Below are positions 34,986 through 39,980 of a stretch of DNA of 48,455 nucleotides, piece after piece. The stretch's first letter is position 1. Each line of letters begins with the position of its first letter. Below the pieces are notes generated by a model. The model ran no database searches. It had not been told where the DNA came from and saw nothing but the letters and a program-made list of their open reading frames with translations. A program made the position numbers and the translations under genes. This DNA is from an uncultured Verrucomicrobiales bacterium (lineage in GTDB: Bacteria > Verrucomicrobiota > Verrucomicrobiia > Verrucomicrobiales > Akkermansiaceae): NCBI GenBank assembly GCA_913060685.1, contig CAJXVQ010000001.1, positions 1 through 48,455 on the forward strand. The letters run 5' to 3'.

Positions 34986-35450
34986 GATACGAATTGGGGG
35001 TTGTTTTGGTTTCTTTTGCCGGGCGCTTTTGCCCGTCATCCCCCCATGCGTATTCCGGCTAAAAAAACGGACAGTTAAGTTTCATTATTTTCGCAAAACA
35101 AAAATTACGCCTGCACACCGCGTCGAAACCCGGGGCGATATTGGGCGGAAAGATGAAGCCAAGAAAGCGCCCCGTGCTTGGGACATCTTCTCCATCAAGG
35201 TCGGGAAATCCCACAAAACATCGACTGAGAAGATATTATGAACTTCATGATCGATTATGAGGATCAATGCCCTCCGGCATAGTGTCCTGTCGTCAATCAA
35301 AACAGAAACCATGAATCCATTCACCAAACCCGCCCACTTCCTCACCATCTCCCTCACGGCCACCACCGCCCACGACAGTCTTGGTGCCTTCCTCCCTGTA
35401 GACGGTGACACCGCCAGCCCTCTGGCGCTTACTCTCCACACAATATAGTG
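34986..35450. other. Intergenic region with a short doubtful frame
   Basis: This holds the promoter side of the minus-strand PEP-CTERM gene (motif TTTTTGTTTTGCGAAAA on the minus strand near 35087-35105). A 45-codon plus-strand frame at 35311-35448 (M-N-P-F-T-K-P-A-H-F-L to T-L-H-T-I) has a weak signal-like hydrophobic stretch and ends two bases before the MFS ATG. It could be a leader peptide or the stump of a lost secreted protein; I do not call it a gene. Confidence 0.4.
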
Positions 35451-36707
35451 ATGAACAGCAATTTAACCAAGCGAGGCTTCCTCTCCCTGACCGTCGCACA
35501 ATTTTTTGGGGCGGCGAACGACAACCTTCTGAAGGTCGTACTCAGTTTTGCCGTGGGAACAGGCCTCTGGTATACCTTGCTAGGAGAGGGAGGAGTGGCT
35601 TACATCGGGCTTTGTTTTACGATGCCGTTCATTTTTCTTTCGGGTTACGCAGGACAATTGGCGGATCGAATCAGTAAACAAAAGATCTCCTACTGGGTGA
35701 AAGTCGCAGAGATCGGGATCACTTTGGTGGCGATGCTGGGATTCTGGCAGGGTAATTTATGGATCACCATGGGAGCGATGATTCTCCTGGCGATTCAAAG
35801 TGCTTTTTTTGGACCGGCCAAGTATGGCATGATTCCCGAGTTGGTGGACAAGGGAGATCTCAGCCGCGCCAATGGCGTGATCAATATGTCGACGAACATC
35901 GCCGTGATCGCGGGAACCGTGTTGGCGGGGCATGTGTCTGATGCCTATCAAGGGATCGACACGGATATGCCGCTTTCCTGGCTGCCGGGAGTGGCATTGG
36001 TAGGTGTCGCCATTCTGGGTTGGGTCGCGATTTCATTCATGCCTCGAATGGAGGCGATGGATCCTGATCTGAAGTTCGACTGGAATCCATTCGGGGTTTA
36101 CCTGACGGCCTTGAAAGAAATGAGCCGTAGTCCTTTGCTGACCGTGGCCTGTGCGTGGTCGACCTTCTACATGATCGGGATGCTGGCACTGACGATCTTG
36201 TTGGCGTATCCGAAACTGTTCGTGCTAAGTGACAGCGAAGGAGCTATGCTGCTCGGAGTGCTGGGAGTGTCAATTGGCATGGGGAGTGTGCTGGCGGGGC
36301 TGATTTCCGGACACACCATTAAACCGAAACTGATTCCGGTCGGGGCGATTGGAATGACGATCTTCTTCGCGGCCTTGGGACTGGCTCCCATGAATTACGG
36401 AATCGTGGCAACTTTCATTGCCGGTGTCGGCGTGTTTGCGGGTTTCTACATCGTTCCCTTGCAGGCACTTCTCCAGCATCTCTCACCCGATGACGAACGG
36501 GGCCGGTTTCTGGGAACCGCAAACGCGATGTCCTTTGTCGCGAGTTCGATAGGGCTCTTGATTTATATATTTACAGTCCGGGTGCTTGGGATGGAACCCA
36601 ATCGGGTGTTCTTAATTTGTGCAGGGTTGGCGTTTTTCGGGACGGGTGCCTTGATCTGGCGGATGCGTAAACTGATGGCGAAGGAAGCGAATAAAGAGGC
36701 TGCCTGA
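35451..36707 (+). CDS. MFS transporter, LplT-like
   Basis: This is a 418-residue (419 from the GTG at 35448) twelve-helix major facilitator protein. The opening F-F-G-A-A-N-D-N-L-L-K and the loop I-Q-S-A-F-F-G-P-A-K-Y-G resemble the lysophospholipid flippase LplT, which returns lysophospholipids to the inner leaflet for reacylation. The loop between helices 2 and 3 carries A-D-R-I-S-K-Q, the MFS motif-A region. The second MFS protein at 40618-41943 belongs to the same subgroup. Right after its stop lies a copy of the first codons of a sigma gene (36713-36750), and its own last 77 codons are repeated at 39679-39913, so this gene took part in a duplication. The substrate is inferred from the family only. 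Confidence 0.9.
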   Translation: MNSNLTKRGFLSLTVAQFFGAANDNLLKVVLSFAVGTGLWYTLLGEGGVAYIGLCFTMPFIFLSGYAGQLADRISKQKISYWVKVAEIGITLVAMLGFWQGNLWITMGAMILLAIQSAFFGPAKYGMIPELVDKGDLSRANGVINMSTNIAVIAGTVLAGHVSDAYQGIDTDMPLSWLPGVALVGVAILGWVAISFMPRMEAMDPDLKFDWNPFGVYLTALKEMSRSPLLTVACAWSTFYMIGMLALTILLAYPKLFVLSDSEGAMLLGVLGVSIGMGSVLAGLISGHTIKPKLIPVGAIGMTIFFAALGLAPMNYGIVATFIAGVGVFAGFYIVPLQALLQHLSPDDERGRFLGTANAMSFVASSIGLLIYIFTVRVLGMEPNRVFLICAGLAFFGTGALIWRMRKLMAKEANKEAA

Positions 36708-36712
36708 ACCCC

Positions 36713-36867: not shown

Positions 36868-37593
36868 CTATTCGTCCTCAGTCTCTTCATCAGAGTCCGG
36901 GGATGCTTCCTTGATCAACTTCTGATCCGCTTCGGAAAGCTTGGCGATGGGATAGGGAATCTTTTTCCCATTCTTGAGCTTGAACATGACGTTCTCGCCC
37001 TCGATCGCGGTCACAGCCGCTACCAGGGGCTTGCCCTCGCTGTTGGTCCAGGTGCGCTGAGCGATGAGCGGCTTGGCAAAGAGACCACCGTCATCATCCT
37101 CATCCACAACTTCGACATCCTTGAGGGCCTTCTTGATCGCCTTGTCAAAATCAGGACTCATGGGATGCCCTTCAAAGACGAGCTCACCGCTCGCATCAAA
37201 CACAACGGAATGGGGAATGCCCTTCATATTGGGCGCACGAGTGGAGCCCTTCATGATGGGGTAATTGATCTTGTGCTCCTTCACGAGCTTTTCAATCGCC
37301 TCCACCGAACTGCTCTGAACCTCGGGAGCGAGAATGCGGAGTCCCTTTTTGCTATACTTTTTGTCCATCTTGACCAGATGGGGCATGGCGCCAATACAGG
37401 GGCCTCACTTGGTTCCCCAGTATTCGAAAACCACAACCTGACCCTTGAGGTCTTTCATGGTTACCTCTTCGCCCACTTGAACGGTGCCAATTTCCCAATC
37501 AGAGAGCTTGGCATCGGCAGCCTGGAGGGGCAGGCCCACCGAGGAAACAGCAAGAATTGCTCCGGCTGCAAAATGTTGTAATTTAATTCTCAT
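36868..37593 (-). CDS. Secreted TlpA-like thioredoxin, candidate selenoprotein (UGPC)
   Basis: One 241-codon gene contains a single in-frame TGA at codon 63 (37407-37405). A signal peptide (about 1-26) leads into a thioredoxin-like domain (about 30-160) with V-V-V-F-E-Y-W-G-T-K-[TGA]-G-P-C66-I-G-A-M-P and a cis-proline loop K-G-I-P127-H-S-V-V-F. The TGA falls exactly where TlpA and thioredoxins have the attacking cysteine of CxxC, so the protein would carry U-G-P-C. An SHD1-like domain follows (about 176-227, R-T-W-T-N-S-E-G-K-P then I-A-K-L-S), then an acidic tail. A hairpin with a GGUCA loop lies 29 bases past the TGA. The downstream half is intact and in frame, and a terminator follows the final stop. 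A simple Cys-to-stop mutation or sequencing error is the alternative. It should act as a periplasmic thiol-disulfide or peroxide-reducing enzyme. Confidence 0.78.
37365..37381 (-). promoter_or_regulatory. Candidate bacterial SECIS hairpin
   Basis: In the mRNA, CCAUCU (37381-37376), loop GGUCA (37375-37371) and AGAUGG (37370-37365) form a perfect 6-bp stem with a 5-base loop. It lies inside the coding region, 23 bases after the UGA to the stem and 29 to the loop. Bacterial SECIS elements characteristically have a G at the start of the apical loop and lie about 16-37 bases past the UGA; the fdhF element of E. coli has a GGUCU loop. All these conditions are met. Confidence 0.6.
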
Positions 37594-39579: not shown

Positions 39580-39682
39580 CCGCAAAACAGCAAGGTGGGC
39601 TATTTTAGCTGAACGGGTTTGGCGAAAGTGCGCATCGATCTCTCGACGGCGGGAAAGAAGTCCTTGTTCCCCCGCTGCCCAG
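39580..39682 (-). pseudogene. DUF6288-like gene fragment with internal deletion
   Basis: On the minus strand, the codons read G-N-K-D-F-F-P-A-V-E-R-S-M-R-T-F-A-K and then directly P-V-Q-L-K-stop. The intact gene at 45641-47077 has G-N-K-D-F-L-P-A-V-E-K-S-M-R-T-F-A-K near its middle and A-K-P-V-R-L-K at its very end, so about 270 codons between the two A-K positions have been lost. The 3' flank beyond the stop is also similar in both places. Its left-over 5' part is missing because the MFS fragment begins. Confidence 0.8.
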
Positions 39683-39913
39683 CATCTCTCACCCAATGAT
39701 GAACGGGGCCGGTTTCTGAAAACCGCAAACGCAATGTCCTTTGTCGCGAGTTCGATAGGGCTCTTGATTTATTTGTTTGCAGTCGAAGTGCTCGGGATGG
39801 AACCCAATCGTGTTTTCCTGATTTGTGCAGGGTTGGCGTTTTTCGGGACGGGAGCTTTGATCTGGCGGATGCGCAAGCTGATGGCGAAGGAAGCTGGCAA
39901 AGAGGCCGCCTGA
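39679..39913 (+). pseudogene. 3' fragment of the LplT-like MFS gene
   Basis: The last 77 codons of the MFS gene at 35451-36707 (from L-Q-H-L-S-P to A-A-stop) are repeated here in frame at about 90% identity, including T-A-N-A-M-S-F-V-A-S-S-I-G-L-L-I-Y. The front 340 codons are missing and no start exists. The junction with the DUF6288 fragment is at CCAGCA, a six-base string present in both parents. The fragment stands directly before sigma 3. Confidence 0.9.
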
Positions 39914-39980
39914 CCCCCAAATAGAGGGCCCGCATTGCCGATTGACCCGCCCCCCGTTGCAGTGGTGAAATGAACGAACG

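Follow-up and report, generated by a model that had tools for sequence, protein, structure and literature searches.

The locus and its predicted product

The window analysed here, a stretch of 48,455 nucleotides from the draft genome of an uncultured Verrucomicrobiales bacterium, carries on its minus strand a reading frame (MRIKLQH...EYWGTK-UGA-GPCIGAMPHLVKMDKK...EDE, 37593-36871 plus the stop codon) that contains a single TGA and is otherwise open (Table 1). Beyond the UGA, the frame passes through a hairpin whose stem region codes for Pro-His-Leu-Val-Lys-Met-Asp, and an internal ATG downstream of the UGA starts a frame of 172 aa. A first-pass annotation had described this hairpin as a perfect 6-bp stem with its loop 29 nt past the UGA, and its coordinates on the minus strand are confirmed.

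Table 1. Features of the candidate selenoprotein locus (positions in the window)
Feature	Position	Strand	Basis
Putative selenoprotein gene, 241 aa, UGA read through (U63, motif WGTKUGPC)	36868..37593	minus	translation with TGA as a residue; Pfam; orthologues; AlphaFold
UGA, predicted Sec codon, first position of UxxC motif	37405..37407	minus	same column in 30 orthologues; SelA co-occurrence
Spacer from UGA to stem, 23 nt (29 nt to loop), length fixed in all orthologues	37382..37404	minus	ungapped alignment
Predicted bSECIS hairpin CCAUCU-GGUCA-AGAUGG, 6-bp stem and 5-nt loop	37365..37381	minus	RNAfold; RNAalifold (30 Sec); pair counts; absent in Cys homologues
5' arm CCAUCU	37381..37376	minus	sequence
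Apical loop GGUCA	37371..37375	minus	loop NGUNN in 30/30 Sec, 1/25 Cys
Invariant loop positions 2-3, G U; likely SelB contact	37374-37373	minus	loop conservation
3' arm AGAUGG	37370..37365	minus	sequence

The translated product matches the Pfam models AhpC-TSA and Redoxin over cut-off, and a C-terminal SHD1-like domain scores 18.0 bits, just under its Pfam cut-off of 23.7. Profile comparison with solved structures places it nearest to a redoxin-domain protein and to oxidoreductases of the ResA type, and the thioredoxin domain of the AlphaFold model (pLDDT about 86 or more over the block of residues 31 to 160) superposes on ResA with a TM-score of about 0.77 by target length. Residue U63 directly precedes the first long helix of the model (64-83), the usual place of a CxxC motif. 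With a thioredoxin fold and a CxxC-type motif both present, the product is predicted to be a ResA/TlpA-like thiol-disulfide oxidoreductase; its N-terminus resembles a signal peptide, which suggests export, and its role is likely to be the reduction or oxidation of extracytoplasmic disulfides.

On the plus strand, an antisense frame of 138 aa (37165-37581) spans the UGA of this gene and is likewise open in the closest relative; it is probably a shadow frame, and could lead gene callers to annotate the wrong strand. Elsewhere in the window, positions 36473-36712 (the 3' end of an MFS-like gene, 35448-36707) recur 3.2 kb downstream at 39679-39918 as an 89% copy, which is a partial gene duplication around a CDGSH/glutamate-synthase-like gene.

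Sec and Cys homologues and the selenocysteine machinery

Homologues were gathered from 260 genomes of the same family by protein search and from a scan of GTDB genomes. In the 260-genome search some orthologues carried a single TGA in frame at the matching site and others no stop at all. The comparison sets comprised 30 distinct Sec-type sequences (all Verrucomicrobiales, including Roseibacillus persicicus and a Rubritalea metagenome-assembled genome) and 25 of the Cys type, which have the PHL motif in common. The TGA of the 30 orthologues aligns with TGC or TGT in the 25 close Cys homologues, and protein similarity extends to both flanks of the UGA. The motif reads U[G/P/A]PC in the Sec forms and CPPC in the Cys forms, with one exception (CPLC). 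Conserved gene neighbours were also sought: the genes on either side were compared by tblastn with the 80 related loci, without a match.

In the protein tree the Sec sequences form one group with five Cys sequences nested inside it; because some of these nested sequences have long branches, the number and direction of Sec/Cys switches are uncertain. The Cys homologue of one genome (G218) groups with the Sec clade and reads CAC TTG GTC AAA CTG, such that the Val is kept and the stem is lost. Two loci stand out: one Sec-type copy in a relative with UGA and hairpin (L031, G235:C123) also has a downstream in-frame TAG and an intact Cys paralogue alongside, and is possibly a decaying copy, while a Cys paralogue in the genome of the window itself (L050, G000:C121; WGVGCSSC) looks frameshifted, since its two matching stretches (1860-2306 and 2333-2506) lie in different open frames. 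Other TGA-containing thioredoxin-fold genes in relatives (L048, L044 and L043, with WGTWUGPC, WGGUPGC and WGGUVGC, respectively) suggest that there are more selenoprotein families in the Verrucomicrobiales.

SelA co-occurs with the UGA: each of the 16 panel genomes with a UGA orthologue has it over cut-off, and none of 15 Cys genomes other than G218 does (Fisher p 6e-8, with relatedness ignored); G218, the only panel genome to combine a Cys homologue with SelA, also has SelB, tRNA-Sec and a UGA-containing SelD. Beyond G218, over-cut-off matches to SelB were detected in 12 UGA genomes out of 16 and in no other, tRNA-Sec over the Rfam cut-off likewise in 12 of 16, and SelD over cut-off with an in-frame TGA in 14 of 16; two Cys genomes have a SelD without TGA. 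ARAGORN recovered tRNA-Sec in G218 and in every Rfam-positive UGA genome except G098, and in three Cys genomes the over-cut-off Rfam matches were checked and proved to be tRNA-Ser or tRNA-Leu. The UGA-containing SelD genes of G098 and of the sister genome G237 (L243 and L244) themselves have a hairpin 33 nt after the UGA with a GUU or GUC loop, and thus share GU in the loop with the hairpin of the window.

The genome of the window (G000) encodes SelA (477.9 bits) and SelB (307.5 bits), both over cut-off, the latter with both winged-helix domains present. No selD above cut-off was found in this draft assembly, and selC was not convincingly detected by Rfam, ARAGORN, pattern search (up to 3 mismatches), a lineage covariance model or BLASTN with the tRNA-Sec of a relative; the covariance searches scored part of the first-look candidates and were not exhaustive. 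The Rfam candidates for tRNA-Sec in G000 were rejected, being tRNA-Ser, tRNA-Leu or tRNA-Asp according to ARAGORN. The sister G237, whose orthologue is 90% identical, has SelA, SelB and the UGA-containing SelD, and in it too tRNA-Sec was not found, one contig (G237:C457) offering only a tRNA-like 3' end. As both genomes are drafts (G000 comprises 840 contigs and is 93.55% complete), an assembly gap is the most likely reason for the missing selC.

Among the alternatives to Sec, decoding of the UGA as Cys or Trp instead, through code reassignment or a suppressor tRNA, is the one to which the missing tRNA-Sec of G000 lends some weight. We nevertheless consider it very improbable, given that a neighbouring gene stops at TGA (36705-36707), so that UGA is not globally reassigned, that UGA copies occur only in SelA-bearing genomes, 12 of 16 of them with tRNA-Sec, that Trp is implausible in place of a CxxC cysteine, and that the hairpin fits the bSECIS model, as set out below.

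The hairpin in single sequences and across homologues

The first-pass annotation had called for folding of the region in search of a competing structure. RNAfold prefers no such structure: it places the hairpin in the minimum free energy (MFE) structure for every stretch tried (43, 60, 90 and 130 nt), and each of the six pairs has a probability of at least 0.985 in the UGA plus 57 nt. The MFE is -16.0 kcal/mol for the UGA plus 57 nt, -14.8 for 43 nt and -6.8 for the isolated 17-nt hairpin. Folding energy in one sequence was tried as proof and rejected, as its z-score for 43-60 nt (about -1.2) is unremarkable against chance. When every TGA of the window, on either strand, is scored for a perfect stem (6 bp or longer) obeying the loop-G and spacing rules as well, 33 of 1641 (2.0%) have a comparable hairpin. 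Because of this z-score and this chance rate, the hairpin of one sequence alone is weak, suggestive evidence and no independent proof. The annotation had taken it as independent support for readthrough; it does not give that by itself, but does so through its conservation in the 30 orthologues, and it is on this conservation that proof of a bSECIS rests.

All 30 Sec sequences have the codons CAT CTN GTN (A/C/G)AG ATG, such that the inner five pairs (C-G, A-U, U-A, C-G and U-A) are formed in 30/30, as against 3/25 Cys sequences; the outer pair is kept in 26/30 Sec sequences, and no Cys sequence forms all six. From the Sec alignment RNAalifold predicts exactly these six pairs and nothing else, and from the Cys alignment no structure. 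In single-sequence MFE folds the hairpin appears in 27/30 Sec orthologues, an alternative fold being favoured in the other three, and in 0/25 Cys homologues. Conservation among TGA carriers and loss with Cys, the two patterns by which the annotation would have the hairpin judged, are thus both found. Its view that a G is needed at the start of the loop holds in part: the first base is G in 23 Sec orthologues, with A (4) or C (3) in the rest, and it is the GU at loop positions 2-3 that is invariant (30/30 Sec, 1/25 Cys).

Compensatory changes, for which the annotation had also proposed to look, were sought in the 30 Sec orthologues and none was found; since the five inner pairs never vary, compensation cannot be shown, and the invariance of synonymous sites serves instead. 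The twofold synonymous positions of the stem (the T that ends the His codon CAT, and the G that ends the Lys, Gln or Glu codon) underwent no change on the Sec tree, compared with 4 to 10 changes (mean 6.9) in each of 17 other twofold columns of the same genes. Another conserved His of the protein is encoded by CAT in 14 sequences and CAC in 14. The residue between Val and Met varies among Lys, Gln and Glu, its codon always ending in AG as pairing requires. Sec genes never depart from the Val and Met within the element, where Cys genes mostly encode Ala and Leu. As the peptide pattern behind the GTDB scan contains PHLV[KQE]MD, this conservation is ascertained for the loci that the scan yielded, but it is identical in the 15 Sec orthologues from the plain protein search; synonymous sites should be untouched by the ascertainment, the pattern having been back-translated degenerately.

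The same comparison bears on two further explanations. That the conserved hairpin serves some other RNA role (mRNA stability, regulation or an internal start) and is no Sec signal might be argued from a SelB contact that is deduced from sequence, and from an Rfam search of the gene region that gave no family (its sole match, to SCARNA7, is a chance one far below cut-off); a hairpin that accompanies UGA and is almost always missing with Cys, that has bSECIS spacing and an invariant loop GU, and that has GU-loop counterparts in the SelD(UGA) mRNAs of the lineage leaves this hardly credible. The idea that translation truly ends at the UGA, or that the codon is a sequencing or pseudogene artefact, with the hairpin a by-product of the peptide encoded there, could appeal to the chance rate, the z-score and the 172-aa frame, but comparative sequence data already refute it, in that the UGA recurs in the same column in many independent assemblies with similarity on both sides, the synonymous sites of the stem stay unchanged while controls change, and Cys homologues sharing the PHL protein motif lose the hairpin.

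Interpretation and comparison with known systems

Because it is kept in all Sec orthologues and lost in Cys homologues, we interpret the hairpin as a bacterial SECIS that would direct Sec insertion at the UGA, with a probability of roughly 0.96. The pairing of UGA with Cys, the conservation of the hairpin, the constraint on synonymous sites, the co-occurrence with SelA and the presence of SelA and SelB in the genome all argue for this reading. By the mechanism we propose, the GTPase SelB with Sec-tRNA(Sec) would bind the loop of the hairpin via its invariant G-U; the bound hairpin would lie just downstream of the UGA on the ribosome, where Sec would be delivered at residue 63; and the redox motif of the product would be U-G-P-C, in place of the C-P-P-C of Cys homologues.

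With the UGA taken as settled in this way, the locus calls for annotation as a single protein of 241 aa in place of two fragments. A multi-genus selenoprotein family is added to those of the Verrucomicrobiales, together with a clean natural experiment between Sec and Cys, in which an in-frame RNA signal constrains both codons and amino acids and vanishes in the Cys versions. On balance we lean towards a Verrucomicrobiales subfamily, ResA-like and SHD1-like in its domains and outside the NCBIfam selenoprotein models, in which a frozen SECIS would dictate the Val and Met; a search of the literature on selenoproteins of Verrucomicrobia found no paper describing this family.

The SECIS of E. coli fdhF is an in-frame hairpin after the UGA with a GGUC-type loop and GU at loop positions 2-3, and in its familiar form it is alike in these features; it differs in the bulged U under its short apical stem, of which nothing is evident here, the six pairs being uninterrupted. 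The bSECIS consensus model of bSECISearch (Zhang and Gladyshev) is given in PMC13188914, with an upper stem of 4-16 bp, a loop of 3-9 nt, a distance of 16-37 nt from UGA to loop, a G at loop position 1 or 2 (in most cases G[G/U]) and an MFE of at most -7.5 kcal/mol. Against these limits, the stem (6 bp), loop (5 nt), loop G (GGUCA) and spacing (29 nt) all lie within range, which bears out the annotation's view of a bSECIS-like element at the right distance, a distance fixed in 30 orthologues; the energy lies below -7.5 for the UGA plus 57 nt, whereas the 17-nt hairpin alone would fall short if the limit refers to the hairpin by itself. The hairpin further differs from the model in being nearly invariant in sequence across the clade. 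Short SECIS hairpins of 5/6 bp a few nt past the UGA, with an invariant loop G and with covariation, are known in Epsilonproteobacteria (PMC4607533); the present hairpin is alike in its short stem and invariant loop G and unlike in its sequence and in showing no covariation.

As for the protein, no NCBIfam model scores over cut-off for this selenoprotein family, NF041054 (ResA-like WAxxUGC motif-containing protein; 25.3 bits, cut-off 300) included: both are ResA-like selenoproteins with weak similarity, and the motif here is WGxxUxPC. The long-known UxxC thioredoxin-fold selenoproteins 'Trx-like 1' (COG0526) and 'Prx-like 1' (pfam00578) of the GOS survey (PMC2398784) share the AhpC-TSA match and the UxxC motif, features by which we liken them to the present family, and are unlike it as regards its SHD1-like C-terminal domain and its distribution in the Verrucomicrobiales. 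Taken together, the hairpin is a bSECIS of the ordinary type, and its gene belongs to an apparently uncatalogued branch within a kind of selenoprotein already known.
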